Shown here piece after piece: positions 4,714 through 26,300 of a DNA stretch of 42,755 nucleotides. How positions within the stretch are numbered: the first letter of the stretch is position 1; every line of letters starts with the position of its first letter. Position numbers and translations under genes: made by a program. The notes below the pieces were generated by a model that was given only the letters and a program-made list of their open reading frames with translations, made no database searches and was not told where the DNA came from. The DNA is taken from positions 1-42,755 of IMG/VR virus record IMGVR_UViG_3300031576_000120. One strand, 5' to 3'. Source of the DNA: a virus.

Positions 4714-4743
4714 TTGACAGCCCCTCACGAAATGTGCTAACAT
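4714..4743 (+). promoter_or_regulatory. promoter of the tRNA array
   Basis: TTGACA at 4714-4719, an 18-base spacer and TAACAT at 4738-4743, followed by a leader of about 60 bases before the first tRNA. It is identical in spacing and in the AATGTGCTAA block to the HNH promoter. It probably drives the whole RNA array. Confidence 0.75.
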
Positions 4744-4808: not shown

Positions 4809-4884
4809 GCTTTCGAAGTGTATTGGATTGCACACTCGCCTGTCACGCGAGAAGCAGCGGGTTCGATCCCCGTCGATAGCGCCA
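4809..4884 (+). tRNA. tRNA-Asp(GTC)
   Basis: 76 nt with encoded CCA. D-stem GTGT/GCAC, anticodon stem CTCGC/GCGAG, anticodon GTC at 4842-4844, T-loop TTCGATC, discriminator G as usual for Asp. A T4-T69 mismatch interrupts the acceptor stem. Confidence 0.9.
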
Positions 4885-4955
4885 GCGGAGTCCATTGGAT
4901 GGTGGCGAAACTCCAAATCTCGCCTTCGTGGGTTCGATTCCTACACGCCGTGCCA
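4885..4955 (+). tRNA. tRNA-Trp(CCA), shortened D arm
   Basis: 71 nt. Anticodon CCA at 4913-4915 in loop CTCCAAA, T-stem GTGGG/CCTAC and encoded CCA. Only about 14 nt separate the acceptor from the anticodon stem, so the D arm is reduced. One mismatch in each of the acceptor and anticodon stems. Confidence 0.75.
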
Positions 4956-5040
4956 GCAGAATTGGTGGAATTGGCAGACACACTGGTCTTAGAAACCAGC
5001 GCCGCAAGGCATACGGGTTCGACTCCTGTATTCTGTACCA
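4956..5040 (+). tRNA. tRNA-Leu(TAG)
   Basis: 85 nt, class II with a long variable arm. Anticodon stem CTGGT/ACCAG, loop CTTAGAA, acceptor GCAGAAT/ATTCTGT, discriminator A, CCA encoded. It abuts both neighbours. Confidence 0.9.
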
Positions 5041-5115
5041 GCTTCGTTCGTCTAGTGGTTAGGACGCCACCCTCTCAAGGTGGCGACAGCGGTTCAACTC
5101 CGCTACGAAGTACCA
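5041..5115 (+). tRNA. tRNA-Glu(CTC)
   Basis: 75 nt. Anticodon stem CCACC/GGTGG, loop CTCTCAA, acceptor GCTTCGT/ACGAAGT, encoded CCA. A second Glu tRNA (TTC) lies at 5885. Confidence 0.9.
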
Positions 5116-5190
5116 GCTTCTCTAGCTCGAAGGCAGAGCAGTTGCTTTACACGCAATTGGGTGCGGGTTCGATTCCTGCGAGAAGTACCA
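5116..5190 (+). tRNA. tRNA-Val(TAC)
   Basis: 75 nt. D-stem GCTC/GAGC, anticodon stem GTTGC/GCAAT, loop TTTACAC, T-stem GCGGG/CCTGC, acceptor GCTTCTC/GAGAAGT, CCA encoded. Confidence 0.9.
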
Positions 5191-5267
5191 GCACACGTAG
5201 CTCAGATGGTTAGAGCACCGATCTGATACATCGGGGGTCGCACGTTCGAGTCGTGCCGAGTGTACCA
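5191..5267 (+). tRNA. tRNA-Ile(GAT)
   Basis: 77 nt. Anticodon stem CCGAT/ATCGG, loop CTGATAC, T-stem GCACG/CGTGC, CCA encoded. There is an A5-A68 mismatch in the acceptor stem. Confidence 0.9.
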
Positions 5268-5341
5268 CAGAGTGAAGTGTTACGGCAGCACAGGTGGTTT
5301 GGGGCCATCGGGACGGGGTTCAATTCCTCGTACTCTGACCA
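5268..5341 (+). tRNA. tRNA-Pro(TGG)
   Basis: 74 nt. It starts with C1 paired to G72, as expected for bacterial Pro tRNA. Anticodon loop TTTGGGG, T-loop TTCAATT, acceptor CAGAGTG/TACTCTG, CCA encoded. Confidence 0.9.
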
Positions 5342-5415
5342 GCATCGTTGGGCTAGCGGCAGACCGTGACGTTGCCAACGTCGAGGCGCGTGTTCGATTC
5401 ACGCACGATGCACCA
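5342..5415 (+). tRNA. tRNA-Gly(GCC)
   Basis: 74 nt. Acceptor GCATCGT/ACGATGC pairs perfectly. Anticodon stem TGACG/CGTCG, loop TTGCCAA, T-stem GCGTG/CACGC, CCA encoded. Confidence 0.9.
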
Positions 5416-5416
5416 C

Positions 5417-5491
5417 GGGGGATTAGGCTATCAGGGAAACCATCTGCCTTGCAAGCAGAATTGCGGAGTTCGAGTCTCCGATTCTCCACCA
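5417..5491 (+). tRNA. tRNA-Ala(TGC)
   Basis: 75 nt. Acceptor GGGGGAT/ATTCTCC contains the G3-U70 wobble that marks Ala tRNA. Anticodon stem TCTGC/GCAGA, loop CTTGCAA, CCA encoded. Confidence 0.9.
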
Positions 5492-5492
5492 C

Positions 5493-5566
5493 ACTCCATT
5501 CGTTCAATGGTAGGATACGCGGTTGTTACCCGTAGGATCAGGGTTCGAATCCTTGATGGAGTGCCA
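5493..5566 (+). tRNA. tRNA-Asn(GTT)
   Basis: 74 nt. Acceptor ACTCCAT/ATGGAGT, anticodon loop TTGTTAC, T-stem CAGGG/CCTTG, discriminator G as usual for Asn, CCA encoded. Confidence 0.9.
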
Positions 5567-5643
5567 GTTCCTTTAGCGCAGTTGGATAGCGCGCGACCCC
5601 GCGAAGGTCGAGGTCAGTGGTTCGAGTCCACTAAGGAATACCA
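5567..5643 (+). tRNA. tRNA-Arg(GCG), C33 variant
   Basis: 77 nt with a perfect anticodon stem CGACC/GGTCG. The loop reads CCGCGAA, so the nearly universal U33 is C, and the anticodon is GCG instead of the usual bacterial ACG. Acceptor GTTCCTT/AAGGAAT, CCA encoded. Confidence 0.85.
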
Positions 5644-5719
5644 GCTTCGGAAGCTCAATTGGCAGAGCAGGCGGCTCTTACCCGTCCGGTTGCGAGTTCG
5701 ACTCTCGCCCGTAGCACCA
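5644..5719 (+). tRNA. tRNA-Lys(CTT)
   Basis: 76 nt. D-stem GCTC/GAGC, anticodon loop CTCTTAC, T-stem GCGAG/CTCGC, CCA encoded. It has the same T4-T69 mismatch as tRNA-Asp. Confidence 0.9.
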
Positions 5720-5809
5720 GGAAGATTGGCAGAGTGGCCGATCGCAGCAGTTTGCTAAACTGTAGCCCGTGAATTCGGGCCAGGGGTTCGAATCCTCTAT
5801 CTTCCGCCA
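5720..5809 (+). tRNA. tRNA-Ser(GCT)
   Basis: 90 nt, class II with a long variable hairpin (AGCCCGTG...CGGGCC). Anticodon loop TTGCTAA, acceptor GGAAGAT/ATCTTCC, discriminator G, CCA encoded. Confidence 0.9.
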
Positions 5810-5810
5810 C

Positions 5811-5884
5811 TGTTCGTTCGTCTAACGGTAGGACGCGGGCCTCTGAACCCCGAAATCATGGTTCGAATCCATGAGGAACAGCCA
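5811..5884 (+). tRNA. tRNA-Gln(CTG)
   Basis: 74 nt. U1-A72 with discriminator G is typical of Gln. Anticodon loop CTCTGAA, T-stem CATGG/CCATG, CCA encoded. C31-C39 and G6-G67 mismatches. Confidence 0.88.
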
Positions 5885-5958
5885 GGATCATTCGTCTAAC
5901 GGTAGGACGCGGGCCTTTCAAACCCGCAACCGGAGTTCGACTCTCCGATGATCTACCA
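5885..5958 (+). tRNA. tRNA-Glu(TTC)
   Basis: 74 nt. Anticodon loop CTTTCAA, T-stem CGGAG/CTCCG, acceptor GGATCAT/ATGATCT, CCA encoded. The anticodon stem has a C31-A39 mismatch. Its 5' half is closely similar to the adjacent Gln(CTG), suggesting duplication. Confidence 0.88.
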
Positions 5959-6028
5959 GCCTTCGCTCAAGGCGAGCGCCGTCCCTCGTAAAGACGGCTT
6001 GAGAGTTCGATTCTCTCCGATGGCCCCA
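5959..6028 (+). tRNA. tRNA-Thr(CGT), compact D arm
   Basis: 70 nt. Anticodon loop CTCGTAA, T-stem GAGAG/CTCTC, CCA encoded. A 4-bp D hairpin with a 5-nt loop (GCTC/GAGC) begins inside the acceptor linker, so the D arm is shortened. T4-T69 and C31-A39 mismatches. Confidence 0.8.
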
Positions 6029-6029
6029 C

Positions 6030-6092
6030 GGGTCTTTACATGGCTGTCCTTGCTAGCGGGGGCTGGTTCGATTCCAGTAATGAGACTCATCA
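6030..6092 (+). pseudogene. degenerate tRNA
   Basis: A T arm (GCTGG-TTCGATT-CCAGT) and a plausible acceptor (GGGTCTT/GAGACTC) are present. However, three extra bases (6079-6081) split T stem from acceptor, the 3' end reads TCA instead of CCA, and no good anticodon stem can be drawn. It is most likely a decayed tRNA, or a tRNA-like element of unknown use. No anticodon is assigned. Confidence 0.5.
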
Positions 6093-6093
6093 C

Positions 6094-6179
6094 GGAACGT
6101 CTAACATTGGCGTGTGCAACCGTCTTGAAAACGGCAGGGTGTGAAAGCCTTGAGGGTTCGATTCCTTCACGTTCCGCCA
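6094..6179 (+). tRNA. tRNA-Ser(TGA)
   Basis: 86 nt, class II. Anticodon loop CTTGAAA, long variable arm, T-stem GAGGG/CCTTC, acceptor GGAACGT/ACGTTCC, discriminator G, CCA encoded. Confidence 0.9.
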
Positions 6180-6254
6180 GCGAGTTTAGTGTAGCGGCTA
6201 TCACGCCTGCCTTCCAAGCAGGAAACCGGAGTCCGATCCTCCGATCTCGCACCA
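6180..6254 (+). tRNA. tRNA-Gly(TCC)
   Basis: 75 nt. Anticodon stem CCTGC/GCAGG, loop CTTCCAA, CCA encoded. The T loop is TCCGATC, so the usual U55 is C. T6-T67 mismatch in the acceptor. Confidence 0.88.
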
Positions 6255-6255
6255 C

Positions 6256-6329
6256 TGAGGGTTCGTCTAATGGTAGGACGGGAGCCTTTGAAACTCCCTA
6301 CCTGGGTTCGAATCCTAGACCCTCAGCCA
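6256..6329 (+). tRNA. tRNA-Gln(TTG)
   Basis: 74 nt. Acceptor TGAGGGT/ACCCTCA with U1-A72 and discriminator G. Anticodon loop CTTTGAA, C31-A39 mismatch, CCA encoded. Confidence 0.9.
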
Positions 6330-6405
6330 GCCATGCTAGTGACAACGGCTAGCACAGGGACTTGGTAAGTCTCAAGACTGAGTTCGATTCTCAGGCGTGG
6401 CTCCA
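6330..6405 (+). tRNA. tRNA-Thr(GGT)
   Basis: 76 nt. Anticodon stem GGGAC/GTCTC, loop TTGGTAA, T-stem CTGAG/CTCAG, acceptor GCCATGC/GCGTGGC, discriminator T, CCA encoded. The D arm can form GCTA/TAGC shifted toward the acceptor. Confidence 0.87.
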
Positions 6406-6406
6406 C

Positions 6407-6483
6407 GGCAACGTAGCCCAACGGCAGAGGCAACGGCTTCAAAACCCGTACAGGTGCCAGTTCGAATCTGGCGGTTGCTACCA
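6407..6483 (+). tRNA. tRNA-Leu(CAA)-type, short variable loop
   Basis: 77 nt. Spacing from the 5' end places the loop TTCAAAA at 32-38, giving anticodon CAA. Bacterial Leu tRNAs have long variable arms, but this one has only about 6 nt, so charging is uncertain. C31-C39 mismatch. T-stem GCCAG/CTGGC, CCA encoded. Confidence 0.75.
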
Positions 6484-6484
6484 C

Positions 6485-6559
6485 TGCGGAGTGGTGCTCT
6501 GGTGAGCACATCAGATTCATAACCTGACAAGGCGAGTTCGATCCTCGTCTCCGCTACCA
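6485..6559 (+). tRNA. tRNA-Met(CAT)
   Basis: 75 nt. Anticodon loop TTCATAA, D-stem GTGC/GCAC, T-stem GCGAG/CTCGT, CCA encoded. Position 1-72 is a T-T mismatch, reminiscent of initiators, but the three G-C pairs of an initiator anticodon stem are absent. Elongator Met or Ile2 are also possible. Confidence 0.85.
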
Positions 6560-6629
6560 GCCCTCGCGCACGGTGCGTGCAGCCCCTTGTAAGGGCAGCC
6601 ACAGAGTTCGACTCTCTGCGATGGCTCCA
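6560..6629 (+). tRNA. tRNA-Thr(TGT), compact D arm
   Basis: 70 nt, the same compact architecture as Thr(CGT). Anticodon loop CTTGTAA, T-stem CAGAG/CTCTG, discriminator T, CCA encoded. Position 4-69 is again mismatched. Confidence 0.82.
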
Positions 6630-6630
6630 C

Positions 6631-6707
6631 GGTGTTGATAGTGTACTGGTTGTGCATGGTAGGCTGTGAACCTGCTGGTACGAGTTCGATCCTCGTTCAT
6701 CACCCCA
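6631..6707 (+). tRNA. tRNA-His(GTG)
   Basis: 77 nt including an extra 5' G(-1) at 6631 opposite discriminator C73, the hallmark of His tRNA. Anticodon stem GTAGG/CCTGC, loop CTGTGAA, CCA encoded. T4-T69 mismatch. Confidence 0.92.
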
Positions 6708-6784
6708 CTGTCGGTAGAGTTCTGGCGGAACGACGCGGACTGTAAACCCGCTCAAGCGTGGTTCGATCCCACGACGACAGACCA
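6708..6784 (+). tRNA. tRNA-Tyr(GTA), class I type with C1-G72
   Basis: 77 nt. Anticodon loop CTGTAAA is typical of Tyr. It has C1-G72 and a short variable loop, whereas bacterial Tyr tRNAs normally have G1-C72 and a long arm. T-stem CGTGG/CCACG, discriminator A, CCA encoded. Confidence 0.82.
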
Positions 6785-6860
6785 GACGCGATAGCTCAGT
6801 TGGTAGAGCGTTCGGTTGAAACCCGAAAGGTCGGCGGTTCGAGTCCGCCTCAAGTCACCA
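6785..6860 (+). tRNA. tRNA-Phe(GAA)
   Basis: 76 nt. D-stem GCTC/GAGC, anticodon stem TTCGG/CCGAA, loop TTGAAAC, T-stem GGCGG/CCGCC, CCA encoded. Two acceptor mismatches (4-69 and 5-68). Confidence 0.9.
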
Positions 6861-6936
6861 GCATCCTTAGCTCAGTGGATAGAGCGGCGCGCTTCGAACG
6901 CGAAGGTCGGGGGTTCGAATCCTCTAGGGTGTTCCA
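6861..6936 (+). tRNA. tRNA-Arg(TCG)
   Basis: 76 nt. Anticodon loop CTTCGAA in stem GCGCG/CGCGA, T-stem GGGGG/CCTCT, acceptor GCATCCT/AGGGTGT, discriminator T, CCA encoded. Confidence 0.9.
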
Positions 6937-7009
6937 GCATCGTTCGTCTTGGATGGCGTAGCAGTGTTCTAAGCTGCGAGGGTGGGTTCGAATCCTACAC
7001 GGTGTACCA
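6937..7009 (+). tRNA. tRNA-Arg(TCT)
   Basis: 73 nt. Anticodon stem GCAGT/GCTGC, loop GTTCTAA, T-stem GTGGG/CCTAC, acceptor GCATCGT/ACGGTGT, CCA encoded. The D arm is two bases short and G32 is unusual. Confidence 0.85.
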
Positions 7010-7010
7010 C

Positions 7011-7093
7011 GGGGGCAGACGGGTTCGACAGCGACGCAGAACCGCACGTCGGAGTGTTGCTGGACAGGAGTTCGACTCTCCTTGCTTCCACCA
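7011..7093 (+). ncRNA. tmRNA-like tRNA-like domain without message region
   Basis: 83 nt. Acceptor GGGGGCA/TGCTTCC has the G3-U70 pair and A73-CCA needed for alanine charging, and the T arm AGGAG-TTCGACT-CTCCT is normal. The D side reads ACGGGTTCGAC, matching the conserved GG(N)TTCGAC of tmRNA 5' ends. There is no anticodon arm. Instead CAGCGAC and GTTGCTG form a 7-bp helix like tmRNA helix P2, closing a ~20-nt loop. No tag reading frame with a stop is present, so it may be a deletion remnant or a minimal functional form. A very aberrant tRNA is the alternative. Confidence 0.55.
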
Positions 7094-7094
7094 C

Positions 7095-7169
7095 GGCGCT
7101 TTAGCCAAGCGACTAAGGCTCCTGTCTGCAAAACAGGGATCGTGAGTTTGATTCTCACAAGCGCCTCCA
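7095..7169 (+). tRNA. tRNA-Cys(GCA)
   Basis: 75 nt. Acceptor GGCGCTT/AAGCGCC is perfect. Anticodon stem CCTGT/ACAGG, loop CTGCAAA, CCA encoded. The T loop is TTTGATT, with U in place of the invariant C56. Last member of the array. Confidence 0.9.
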
Positions 7170-9229: not shown

Positions 9230-9291
9230 AAAGGGAACATGGACTACGAATTGTTCGGATGGCTCGGCCTACTACTTATCCACGGCAGTAG
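8947..9291 (+). CDS. possible overlapping zinc-knuckle protein
   Basis: 114 aa, read in a different frame from the 3' third of the MazG gene and into the next gene. It has an AAAGGGG ribosome site five bases before its ATG, an ordered CGLRPKPRGHTIKGCPACRKGH cysteine/histidine region (shown here as CG, H and CPAC positions near residues 19-35) and a plausible helix TREEVEQRLRQLLSL. Either this frame, the MazG tail, or both may be translated. A frameshift in the source sequence is another explanation. Confidence 0.45.
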   Translation: MAEAQHRVVFHPNPTTAYCGLRPKPRGHTIKGCPACRKGHAGYWAAVRAQSAAAHPGWPRKRHPTREEVEQRLRQLLSLRQATNSGRRLRGQLLEREHGLRIVRMARPTTYPRQ

Positions 9292-9565
9292 AATCCCACA
9301 ACTGATCCACATGCTAGCTAGCAAGCGAGCCACTGGCCTCTCGCTCAGCGGTACGGCAGCGATAGAGGCGGGGCTAGCTAGCTATCTCGTGTACGCCATC
9401 GTGCGGCACGACCGAGTGTTCATCGCCAGCAACCTGATCGGCTTCGCGCTGCAAGGGTTCGTGCTGTACCTGAACTGGCTGTGGCGAGAACGGAAGCAGC
9501 CGATTGCAACCAGCGACGGCGACTTCTATTGGCGAGAAGGCAAGTTGCACAGGGGGCGACCGTGA
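9239..9565 (+). CDS. SemiSWEET/PQ-loop membrane protein
   Basis: 108 aa. Three hydrophobic helices (about residues 5-24, 38-56 and 60-82) carry the PQ-loop signature in helix 1 and after it: RIPQLIHMLASKRATGLSL (P20-Q21, then K...GLS). This is the triple-helix bundle of SemiSWEET sugar transporters, which act as dimers in the inner membrane. The C-terminal ~25 residues are charged and cytoplasmic. It is unusual in a replication cluster. Start AAAGGGAAC-ATG. It contains two GCTAGCTAGC tracts. The sugar-transport role is inferred from the family; nucleoside or another small solute is possible. Confidence 0.7.
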   Translation: MDYELFGWLGLLLIHGSRIPQLIHMLASKRATGLSLSGTAAIEAGLASYLVYAIVRHDRVFIASNLIGFALQGFVLYLNWLWRERKQPIATSDGDFYWREGKLHRGRP

Positions 9566-22597: not shown

Positions 22598-23263
22598 TTA
22601 CTCTACCCACAGCCCACCGGGACTCTCGATGATTTCCTGGTCGTCGTACCGCGCGATCTCTTGCTGCATGGCCTGCCATTGCCGCATGTGCTTCATAAGG
22701 TCATTATTGTCTCGGCCTGTCGCGCTCGTGTGAAGGTACGCCTTCGCCACGTTCAGCAGCACGGGGTACGGGATAACGCACGTATCCGCGCTCGCTGTCA
22801 GCAGCGGCGGATGGCGGTAGCCAATGAGTCGCATCTTGAGGCCCGTCTGGTTGAGGTTGTGCCGCGACATGCTGTTTTTGTCGAAGTGCAGCAGCACGTT
22901 CGTTGGCGTGGACGGGTCGCGCGTGAACGTCACAATGTCCAGCGGCACGATGAACTCGTACAGGCCAGAGCCAACGCTTGGCCCGTGCGCGTAGAGATTG
23001 CCGTTCGCCTCGGCCTTCGCTTCCGATAGGTAGGCGAGGTCGGAGTCGGTAATGTCGTAGTCGTAGGTGCCACTGGTGATGGTTACGAGCACAGCCGTCC
23101 GCTCCATGTGCTTCTTGCGGAGGACTTCGATGCTCGCATTGATGGAGTCTCGATACTCATCAATACCCCATCGCGCGAAGGCAGGGACACCAGCACTGCT
23201 GGCATCCCCCACCCTACGCGCTAGTTCTGTCTCAAGCTGGCTCCGTGTTCTGCTGTTCGCCAT
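22598..23263 (-). CDS. head-tail connector (gp6-like adaptor)
   Basis: 221 aa. The helical start (RSQLETELARRVGD...ARWGIDEYRDSINASIEVLRKKH) followed by a beta insert and C-terminal helices (AKAYLHTSATGRDNNDLMKHMRQWQ) resembles phage adaptor proteins that ring the portal. It is ordered between capsid and tail genes, as expected. It overlaps the glycosyltransferase gene by 32 bases. Confidence 0.55.
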   Translation of the reverse strand: MANSRTRSQLETELARRVGDASSAGVPAFARWGIDEYRDSINASIEVLRKKHMERTAVLVTITSGTYDYDITDSDLAYLSEAKAEANGNLYAHGPSVGSGLYEFIVPLDIVTFTRDPSTPTNVLLHFDKNSMSRHNLNQTGLKMRLIGYRHPPLLTASADTCVIPYPVLLNVAKAYLHTSATGRDNNDLMKHMRQWQAMQQEIARYDDQEIIESPGGLWVE

Positions 23264-26200
23264 CTTCTGCCGCCCGCGTCAATTCAGCCTGACGCTGCTT
23301 GATGTTCGCCTTCACACTCTTGTCGATCAGCCCCTTCCACTGCTTGTGGACTCGCTCCCAGGTGAAGCTGAGGGCATGTGTTCTGAGGGAAGCACGTAGC
23401 TCCCTCGTATCTCCATTATACCGCGCGAGGACTGCCAGAATCATCTCGTCCTCGTCCAAGGCGAACTCGCTCAGGATCGCGCCCACCTTGCCGATGCGCT
23501 CAGGCAGTGCGCCCTTGTCCGACACAATAGGGATCACGCCTGCCGCCTGCACTTCGAGTGCGGTGATGCAGTACGTTTCCTCGAACTTCGTTGGGTACAG
23601 CCAGTAGCTCGCCTTGGCAAACTCGACTGGCATCTGGTTCTGCGGGATGCGACCTACGTACTCGATGCCGTCCTGCTGTAGCTTCTGCACGATGTTCGCT
23701 CGGAAGGCGTTGTATGCGGCGTTGTTGGGGCCGTACATGGTGTCGGCCACGTCGAACCCGTAGTACACCTTCAACTCTGCGGCTGGCATCCTCTCACGGA
23801 TTGCAGGCCACATATCGAGCACCCGCTCTAGGCCACGGTCGAACGAGGAACTCCAAACGAACCGTGTAGGGTAGCGCTTGTCCTCGTCGGGCACGTCAGC
23901 GAACCGTTCGGGATCGATACCGTTTCCTGTGACCACGAGCTTGTCGGCCACATGCGGGTACTTCTCGGAGAACAGTCGCTTGTGCCATTCGGACAGCACA
24001 AGGATTGTATTGATTTCCTTGGCCCGCTCCGTGGTGATGCGGTCGCCGTAGTTATTGTCGTGGCACCACAGCCACTTCACAGCGGCGTTCACAGGGGCAT
24101 CGAATACCTCTGGAACTCGACTCGATACGAATAGTAGCGCGCCCGCGCCAGCGGCAGGGCCGCTTGGATCGAAGTGCTTGTAGTGGCGATAGAACACACC
24201 GTCCCATACACCGTCCACCATGCCGTACACGAACACAGCGTGTCCAGCATTGCGGAACAGCTTGGCCATTTCGACCACAGCCGTCTCGCTGCCGCCGATG
24301 CCCTCTCCGTCCACTTGCTCAGGGTTCCACTTCTCGACCGATGGGCCTACGTAGAACACTACTGGCAGCTTCAACTCCTCGCGCCTCTTGAGTTCGTACA
24401 GCCAGTTGCCGTATCCAGGCAGCATGTTGCCGACGCTCATGGCCGTCGTCAGAGTCTCGATGCTGGCTCCTACGCCTACCGCTAGGCGGCATAGCATCCC
24501 GAAGTCAAACTCGCGGACGTGGTGCAGATGCACACCGTCAGGCGTGTTCCGTAGCTCCGCGCCCACCGCTTGATGCGGCGTCGTGATGATCATGCGGTCG
24601 GCCACTTCGAGTCCGAACATGACCAACTGAGCGGGATCGATGATGTGCTCGATTACCTCAAGGCAGATCGATACGTCATGCGCCCCCACATCTTCGATAG
24701 CTAGCGAGCGAGCGTCGCCAGCGATGAACCGCATCTTGTCAGCTACGCCCCGCTCCTCGGCGTACTTTCTAGCTAGCTCGATGTTGTATGCGTTAGAGTC
24801 GATCAATGTCACTAGCCAGCCATACTTCTCTACCATGCGGATAGCGATCAGTCCGTCTCCCCCGCCAATGTCTACGATGGTCAGATTCTTTCCAGCCTTC
24901 GCGCGCTCCGCAGCGACCTTCTCAAGTCGCTCGAACACAGCCGCGACTCTCTGCATCTTCTCTGGTTCGGCTTCGTATGTGTGAGCACCACGACCAGCGA
25001 TGTACTTCTCGCCGTCGTAAATGTCCAGCGAGGGATCGAATAGGTGCTCGACCGCTGCGTATGCGGCCTGCTGCAACTGCTCGAACTCCTCTTGGTCAGC
25101 CACATTCTTCGGAGCGAACTTGAGGATTTCCAGTGCGTTCAGCGCGTCTCCACGATTCTGCAAGTGGTAGACCAAGTGCCGCAGGCTCTCAAGTGACTTC
25201 TGCGCGAGCAGTGTCTCTCGGTATCCGTTGAAGTAGTACGTGAACCCCTCGTGCTGACCCTTCGTGTACTCCAACGCCTTGCCGCAGATTTCGAGTGCCT
25301 GCTCCACGAATCCACACGCGGCCAGCGAGCGGTGCTCGTAGGCCCATCGGTTGAACGTGTAGCGTCCAGGGAGTACGAACAACTGGCTCGGTGGCATGGC
25401 CTTGTCGTTGGCCATCTTGTACCACGCCAGCGCCTTGTCGTGCTGGTTCGTCTGCGTCAGGCAGGCAGCGACGCCAAGGTACGAGTCGATGACCTCAGGG
25501 CGCACGTCGATGGCTTGGTGATACCAACCGATGGCACTCTCGAAGTCGCCAAGCTGCTGCGAGCAATCGCCCGCAAACACCGCAGCCTGCCACTGCTCTA
25601 GCTCGTTCTGAGGCTCGTTGTAGTAGTCCGCGAACCACTCACGGGCGTTAGCCCAATCCTCAGCACTGTAGAGCGAGTGCGCGATGTACAGCGTCGTGCG
25701 ACGGTCAGCGGGGTTCTCCTCATAGTACGCGCGCAGCAACTCAAGGTTGCGGTCGTGTCTAGTATCGCGGTTAGCCTGCCACTGGTGAACCCACGTCGCG
25801 TTGTCAAAGCGCACGATGCGGTGCGGCGTGTTTGTCGTCATCGTCTCGTGTACCGGACGTACCCATCGCCAGTCGAGAGACAAGCGGATTACCCTCTCTC
25901 GGTCATGCACGACCTGAGGATTGCCATTCTCGTCGGTCTGATAGACGTATGGGAATTGAATCGAGCCAACGTCTTCAGGTGCGTCCTTCACGATGGCAGG
26001 GATTGTTTCTGGACTCAGGATGTAGTCGTCTGCGTCCATCCACAACATCCATTCGAAGTCCTTTGGCGTGGCGTCCAACACACGGTTACGCGCGTCGGAA
26101 AAGTTCACGAACTCGAAGTCCTCTGTGATGAATGCGCTGTCCGTGTTGGCTTCGAGCCATGACATGACGATCTCACGGGTCGAGTCGTCAGACTCTCCCG

Positions 26201-26300
26201 CGAAACCGATAACGTAGAAGTCAACTGCTGGCTTGACGCTGTTCAGCGCCTTTTCAATGGTGTCCGCAGCATTGCGAACGATCATGTTGAGGACGATCAT
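23232..26300 (-). CDS. GT2 - TPR - methyltransferase - GT4 fusion protein
   Basis: 1022 aa with four parts. Residues 1-230 are a family 2 glycosyltransferase (MIVRNAADTIEKAL, FAGESDDSTREIV, DxD in WMDADD 88-92). Residues ~190-430 are TPR-like helices. Residues ~470-620 are a Rossmann SAM methyltransferase (motif I VDIGGGDG 476-483, then LEVIEHI). Residues ~645-1000 are a family 4 glycosyltransferase (GIGGSETAV 668-676, GNGIDPERF, AAGVIPIVSDKGALPERIG). It probably adds and methylates a glycan, on virion protein, DNA or the host surface. It lies inside the structural operon between a capsid-region gene and the neck gene. Confidence 0.85.
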   Translation of the reverse strand: MIVLNMIVRNAADTIEKALNSVKPAVDFYVIGFAGESDDSTREIVMSWLEANTDSAFITEDFEFVNFSDARNRVLDATPKDFEWMLWMDADDYILSPETIPAIVKDAPEDVGSIQFPYVYQTDENGNPQVVHDRERVIRLSLDWRWVRPVHETMTTNTPHRIVRFDNATWVHQWQANRDTRHDRNLELLRAYYEENPADRRTTLYIAHSLYSAEDWANAREWFADYYNEPQNELEQWQAAVFAGDCSQQLGDFESAIGWYHQAIDVRPEVIDSYLGVAACLTQTNQHDKALAWYKMANDKAMPPSQLFVLPGRYTFNRWAYEHRSLAACGFVEQALEICGKALEYTKGQHEGFTYYFNGYRETLLAQKSLESLRHLVYHLQNRGDALNALEILKFAPKNVADQEEFEQLQQAAYAAVEHLFDPSLDIYDGEKYIAGRGAHTYEAEPEKMQRVAAVFERLEKVAAERAKAGKNLTIVDIGGGDGLIAIRMVEKYGWLVTLIDSNAYNIELARKYAEERGVADKMRFIAGDARSLAIEDVGAHDVSICLEVIEHIIDPAQLVMFGLEVADRMIITTPHQAVGAELRNTPDGVHLHHVREFDFGMLCRLAVGVGASIETLTTAMSVGNMLPGYGNWLYELKRREELKLPVVFYVGPSVEKWNPEQVDGEGIGGSETAVVEMAKLFRNAGHAVFVYGMVDGVWDGVFYRHYKHFDPSGPAAGAGALLFVSSRVPEVFDAPVNAAVKWLWCHDNNYGDRITTERAKEINTILVLSEWHKRLFSEKYPHVADKLVVTGNGIDPERFADVPDEDKRYPTRFVWSSSFDRGLERVLDMWPAIRERMPAAELKVYYGFDVADTMYGPNNAAYNAFRANIVQKLQQDGIEYVGRIPQNQMPVEFAKASYWLYPTKFEETYCITALEVQAAGVIPIVSDKGALPERIGKVGAILSEFALDEDEMILAVLARYNGDTRELRASLRTHALSFTWERVHKQWKGLIDKSVKANIKQRQAELTRAAEDGEQQNTEPA

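Follow-up and report, generated by a model that had tools for sequence, protein, structure and literature searches.

A tag-less tmRNA in a phage tRNA array belongs to a widespread family and is a candidate decoy against host trans-translation

Why would a virus carry a tightly packed set of tRNA genes, and is every element in such a set a tRNA? We examined this question in the IMG/VR virus record IMGVR_UViG_3300031576_000120, a stretch of 42,755 nucleotides (positions 1–42,755 of the record; hereafter, the window). On the + strand, at positions 4809–7169, it contains an array of 31 elements separated by 0–2 nt: 29 tRNA genes, a 63-nt tRNA-like element and a tag-less transfer-messenger RNA (tmRNA). 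The position, strand and head-to-tail packing of the array had been proposed in a first-pass annotation made from the sequence alone, and were borne out by the ARAGORN calls. The gene list of that annotation omitted two elements, the tRNA-like element at 6030–6092 and the tag-less tmRNA at 7011–7093, the latter being our main subject.

The final gene of the array is a tRNA-Cys (GCA) called by ARAGORN at 7095–7169 (+). The 158-nt gap 5' of this gene is occupied, in register with the array, by a probable tRNA-Arg (TCT) and an 83-nt element with an encoded CCA (7011–7093, +). The Rfam model of the bacterial one-piece tmRNA, RF00023, matched the 83-nt element with 57.4 bits against a cut-off of 47, spanning model positions 1–374 with 294 positions skipped. 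We detected all the parts of a tmRNA tRNA-like domain: a 7-bp acceptor whose 5' strand, GGGGGCA (7011–7017, +), pairs G3 with U70; TTCGAC as the D-loop analogue (7024–7029, +); GGAC; a T arm with a 5-bp stem (AGGAG-TTCGACT-CTCCT; 7066–7082, +); and CCA. The G3-U70 pair has an alanine identity role, while the tRNA-like domain is where SmpB binds. In place of the mRNA-like domain we found a P2 stem-loop (7029–7062, +) with nine consecutive pairs, the outermost of which joins the last base of TTCGAC to the first base of GGAC. This single capped stem joins the two tRNA-like halves, and no pseudoknots were found at 7011–7093. According to the RF00023 alignment, with its skipped positions, the mRNA-like domain and the tag are absent, and since the 83 nt are free of stop codons in all forward frames, there is no tag reading frame. 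The element thus shares with bacterial tmRNA the acceptor with G3-U70, TTCGAC, GGAC, the T arm, CCA and the base of P2, but lacks the tag reading frame, the resume codon and the pseudoknots, and measures 83 nt against a 374-position model. It does not form the four-arm cloverleaf with a 7-nt anticodon loop described by RF00005; ARAGORN was silent at these positions and the best match within the Rfam clan was tmRNA. A permuted two-piece tmRNA (RF04321) was also rejected, as the halves stand in normal order and that model gave only a 12.2-bit partial match. The folding energy of the single 83-nt sequence was unremarkable (z -0.40), so the case for this gene rests on comparison.

We scanned IMG/VR with a pattern that fixed TTCGAC, GGAC, parts of the T arm and CCACCA, and allowed 12–42 free bases between the halves. 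The scan returned 86 stretches: 78 had the 7-bp acceptor correctly placed and the same anatomy, 7 had no correct acceptor, and one (L073) was truncated by the contig end. A viral scan for forms without CCA returned 21 stretches, of which 18 passed a stricter filter. With the named phages and the window included, the family comprised 81 distinct sequences from 103 loci. The 81 sequences were chosen by their 7 acceptor and 5 T-stem pairs, P2 not being a criterion; P2 pairs 1–4 were formed in 80, 80, 79 and 77 of them, respectively, against 41–53% with shuffled partners. G3-U70 was found in all 81 sequences. Position 70 was free in the first pattern, and the 63 distinct sequences of that scan, window included, all had the pair; for members from the second scan, U70 was fixed by the pattern. 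A covariance model (R1) trained on 16 sequences, the window not among them, scored the window at 62.2 bits and ordinary tRNAs at about 15–36 bits. Within those 16 sequences, 7 of the 8 P2 pairs were changed on both sides, and 92.6% of the cells were paired compared with 47–52% when the pairing was slid.

The family forms a fairly discrete size class. A scan with longer inserts (43–73 bases) recovered 12 stretches; four of these (L132, L135, L137 and L141) had a 7-bp acceptor and a longer P2 domain, at 112–125 nt, while L139 had 5 of 7 acceptor pairs, L134 was truncated by the contig end and L140 was a member of normal size. In six of the 81 members (L007, L009, L025, L034, L047 and L086) the leader ends with a run rich in C followed by TTC, which might base-pair with the 5' strand of the acceptor. 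No ARAGORN tRNA call overlapped any of the 81 members, and in 40 loci searched with ARAGORN there was one case (L025) of a 324-nt tmRNA built on the 3' half of a member. In contrast, RF00023 was present in all 50 carrier records, above the cut-off in 49. Hence, tRNA scanning, including the tmRNA mode of ARAGORN, mostly misses the tag-less tmRNA, and the Rfam tmRNA model detects it. No family member was found in 398 genomes of one phylum, a small sample, where the sole match scored 25.6 bits and had a broken 5' half. We regard it as firmly supported that this RNA gene exists, has the structure described, is conserved and occurs widely in phages.

Five named phages carry a member, and none of them has a tmRNA annotation at the site. 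They are the Streptomyces phages Shaeky (67.0 bits with R1, within a tRNA array), BRock (70.0 bits) and Alone3 (48.8 bits), the last being the record in which RF00023 stayed under the cut-off, at 36.8 bits; the Pontimonas phage phiPsal1 (69.0 bits), whose 31-kb genome has the member between protease-side genes and the major capsid gene; and the Stenotrophomonas virus Jojan60 (73.4 bits), in which a hypothetical coding sequence overlaps the member. Vibrio D419, picked by a match to the tmRNA 3' end, is a borderline candidate at 43.1 bits with R1. An ARAGORN tRNA lay at most 500 nt away in 26 of the 81 distinct members, a lower bound because many loci are short; a tRNA array is therefore a frequent yet not required setting.

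Other candidates, picked by a match to the tmRNA 3' end, were rejected. phAPEC8, KP2025, PSTCR5, Validus, SYP and B15 had no R1 match of family strength (the best, KP2025, reached 36.4 bits) and no Rfam tmRNA, and phi14:2 and Kabachok scored at most 25.5 and 26.7 bits, respectively. Lactococcus phage AM4 has a full tmRNA (L089, 1184–1533), and permuted tmRNAs were found in Sf-FS3, Pseudomonas phage SM1 (L123, 1418–1809), Xanthomonas phage Rb1 (L126, 977–1282) and Ruegeria phage RpAliso (L127, 950–1256); those of AM4, SM1, Rb1 and RpAliso lack annotation in the public records. The rnaC of T4 is an old stable RNA without known function. It scored 23.7 bits with R1, no better than T4 tRNA-Gly, and has neither TTCGAC nor GGAC where a tmRNA would have them; we did not count it as a member.

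The closest described counterpart is that of Mycobacterium phage DS6A, listed as 'TLD only' (PMC4131195), i.e. a phage tmRNA cut to approximately the tRNA-like domain, with no mRNA-like domain. A DS6A-like molecule, chargeable or not, is reported to strongly inhibit tmRNA, perhaps by titrating SmpB (PMC4131195, citing Mao 2009), and the DS6A form is reported to inhibit the endogenous tmRNA upon expression in E. coli (PMC11915505). DS6A is the single phage case in these accounts, whose available text mentions neither a tRNA array nor a wider family (PMC4131195; PMC11915505), and our likening of the window RNA to it is by description. Our literature search, with subscription papers mostly outside its reach, found no report of a broader family of tag-less phage tmRNAs. 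A tmRNA without the tag reading frame is also described in organelles, with forms of about 65 bp in plastids and mitochondrial forms that persist alongside a targeted SmpB (PMC11915505). The mitochondrial ones are paired with a nucleus-encoded SmpB, whereas the window type occurs in phages without SmpB: we found no SmpB domain (PF01668) in any of 50 carrier records, a subset of the carriers whose records may be fragments, while the same search, run on 14 well-known genomes as a control, detected it in 10, every one bacterial. Since none of the 50 records has SmpB, the tag-less tmRNA must act through host factors.

We consider it rather probable, on the strength of these comparisons, that the tag-less tmRNA is a phage RNA decoy against host trans-translation. 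The array would yield a near-complete private tRNA set together with one tmRNA-derived RNA, which appears to retain the features for alanine charging and for binding SmpB and EF-Tu, with no message to resume on. Enzymes of tRNA processing would excise this RNA from the array, the host alanyl-tRNA synthetase (AlaRS) would charge it with alanine, and host SmpB would bind it. It may then rival host tmRNA in binding SmpB and in entering stalled ribosomes. Trans-translation (i.e. the tagging of unfinished phage proteins and the decay of phage mRNA) would thereby be weakened in the infected cell, and the phage tRNAs would meanwhile sustain translation. Processing and a benefit to the phage are predictions; we infer charging, SmpB binding and inhibition because the tmRNA features are retained and because of the result reported for DS6A. 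In a wider form, to which we give even chances, phages of many kinds would possess an RNA dedicated to inhibiting host trans-translation, a tmRNA stripped down so as to sequester SmpB. Small array phages such as that of the window would deploy it with a private, codon-matched tRNA set as one unit of translation takeover.

Several observations weigh against a decoy. Trans-translation can aid a phage: its loss lowers the plating of lambda-immP22 about 10,000-fold (PMC2862035). Full tmRNAs also occur in other phages, and ARAGORN is reported to find them in 402 of 18,146 phage genomes (PMC9004378). The record of locus L008 (G006) contains both a tag-less tmRNA (46486–46567) and a full-length tmRNA (77588–77979), which is odd for a pure inhibitor. 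The mitochondrial tag-less tmRNAs are kept with SmpB (PMC11915505), a hint of use in rescue, and the DS6A inhibition result of Mao 2009 reaches us second-hand, through PMC4131195 and PMC11915505. The main rival is a rescue factor that replaces host tmRNA, in which the alanylated RNA would enter stalled ribosomes with SmpB, take the nascent chain and allow recycling without a degradation tag. The charging and ribosome-entry features are all kept, the strong conservation suggests a positive function, and the organellar forms persist (PMC11915505); yet such a role leaves release unexplained, because after peptidyl transfer there would be neither a resume codon nor a template, and it sits poorly with the inhibition reported for DS6A (PMC11915505). 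We regard it as unlikely, though it deserves more weight than the readings that follow.

A functionless remnant of a phage or host tmRNA, decaying as it rides in the tRNA array, would account for the lost message part and for the few longer intermediates; it is strongly disfavoured and very improbable, given the two-sided changes at 7 of 8 P2 pairs, the invariant G3-U70, the narrow size range and the many records with a member, among them that of a compact phage of 31 kb, which has it beside the capsid gene. Phages do integrate into ssrA, and in Gordonia phage Yeezy, a rejected, attachment-site-like candidate, a stretch resembling the tmRNA 3' end adjoins the integrase. We found it hardly credible, however, that the window element is an attachment site or a fragment of host ssrA used for integration: such a fragment has no 5' half, while in the family the 5' half is conserved and P2 covaries, Yeezy scored 28.3 bits with R1 against 62.2 for the window, and there was no integrase among the window open reading frames (ORFs) scanned. 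Equally far-fetched is an extra, codon-reading alanine tRNA of unusual shape. The G3-U70 pair and the tRNA-like upper half would suit it, but the stem found at the place of the anticodon arm lacks a conserved anticodon loop of 7 nt, ARAGORN calls no tRNA over any of the members, and the array already has an ordinary tRNA-Ala (TGC; 5417–5491, ARAGORN).

The array around the tag-less tmRNA had been read in the first-pass annotation as 29 tRNAs with encoded CCA that serve all 20 amino acids. All 29 do end in CCA. ARAGORN called 27 of them (4809–7169, +), which are by themselves enough to serve all 20 amino acids; 21 of the 29 passed the Rfam gathering cut-off, which left Trp, Pro, Thr and Tyr with no passing gene. 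The completeness of the set therefore varies with the scanner. The two genes that ARAGORN did not call are plausibly real tRNA genes, though below threshold, so that the count of 29 stands in part. The probable tRNA-Thr (CGT; 5959–6028, +), which Rfam also did not report up to E=10, has 6 of 7 acceptor pairs, a 5-bp T stem and C as discriminator, and its acceptor mismatch at 4:69, a position read by eye, recurs in the called tRNA-Thr (TGT; 6560–6629). The probable tRNA-Arg (TCT; 6937–7009, +) fell short of the Rfam cut-off, at 25 bits where 29 are required, with 7 of 7 acceptor pairs and 5 of 5 T-stem pairs. The 63-nt tRNA-like element (6030–6092, +) lies in register with the array and has no called identity; it has a 7-bp acceptor and a T arm (read by eye) with the loop TTCGATT, three extra bases separate the T stem from the acceptor, and it ends in ATCA, not ACCA. 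A promoter-like site of the sigma-70 type (TTGACA-18-TAACAT, with TG before the second hexamer; 4714–4743, +) lies 65 nt upstream of the first tRNA. It matches at 10 of 12 positions, and chance alone would give roughly one site of this quality in the region.

A set serving all 20 amino acids is not unique, as phage XacN1 has 56 tRNAs that also cover them all (PMC5852040); XacN1 is a jumbo phage with its tRNAs in terminal repeats, whereas the window record is 42.7 kb long and has almost no space between its tRNA genes. A megablast search of phages with the array region returned nothing, and terminase and DnaB scans of IMG/VR returned no relatives of the window, so the array could not be traced through close kin. 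The window terminase is only about 25% identical to those of known phages.

Independence from the host tRNA pool, which the first-pass annotation had suggested, was examined through codon use in 23 window ORFs that we selected (10,082 codons), with both sub-threshold tRNAs counted in the array. Under relaxed wobble, in which U34 decodes complete four-codon boxes, 58 of the 61 sense codons can be read by the array. The exceptions, AAA (8, against 436 AAG), ATA (1) and TTA (4), account for 13 of the 10,082 codons. Strict wobble lowers the number read to 48 of 61, with 13.2% of the codons left unread. If tRNA-Arg (TCT) is excluded, AGA and AGG (44 codons) are also unread. The sole Met tRNA (6485–6559) has a T-T mismatch at 1:72 and, by eye, shows no G-C run such as initiators have in the anticodon stem; because it is the single Met tRNA and there is no clear initiator, the array is not fully self-sufficient. 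The codon data are consistent with such independence, which is supported in part. In the window ORFs covered by the Pfam or PHROGs scans there were no genes for tRNA repair or tRNA nucleases.

The AAA share in the window was 0.030, against 0.188 expected from GAA, CAA and GC3 (z -3.3, relative to 82 other viral loci). AAA was depleted about as extremely in L075, which has 20 tRNAs with Lys-CTT only, and with z -3.0 in L085, which has no tRNA gene in the 14.8 kb covered. Since L085 is also extreme, host codon preference could explain the low AAA, and the data do not separate this cause from the phage's own tRNA set. L090, L075 and L076 each have a large tRNA array with the tag-less tmRNA inside it and CTT as the only called Lys tRNA.

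Two further window genes were recorded. A small protein at 9239–9565 has a PQ-loop repeat and weak similarity to SWEET-type sugar transporters, which is unusual in a phage, and a 1022-aa protein with two glycosyltransferase-like regions is encoded at 23232–26300, in the structural arm.

The tag-less phage tmRNA, represented in the literature available to us by the single case of DS6A, is hereby extended to a clearly covarying family that numbers at least 81 distinct sequences, with unannotated members among the cultured phages of Streptomyces, Pontimonas and Stenotrophomonas. If this RNA blocks ribosome rescue, it would be a natural RNA inhibitor of a pathway that is pursued as an antibiotic target, and the role of trans-translation as a limit on phage growth would become directly testable.

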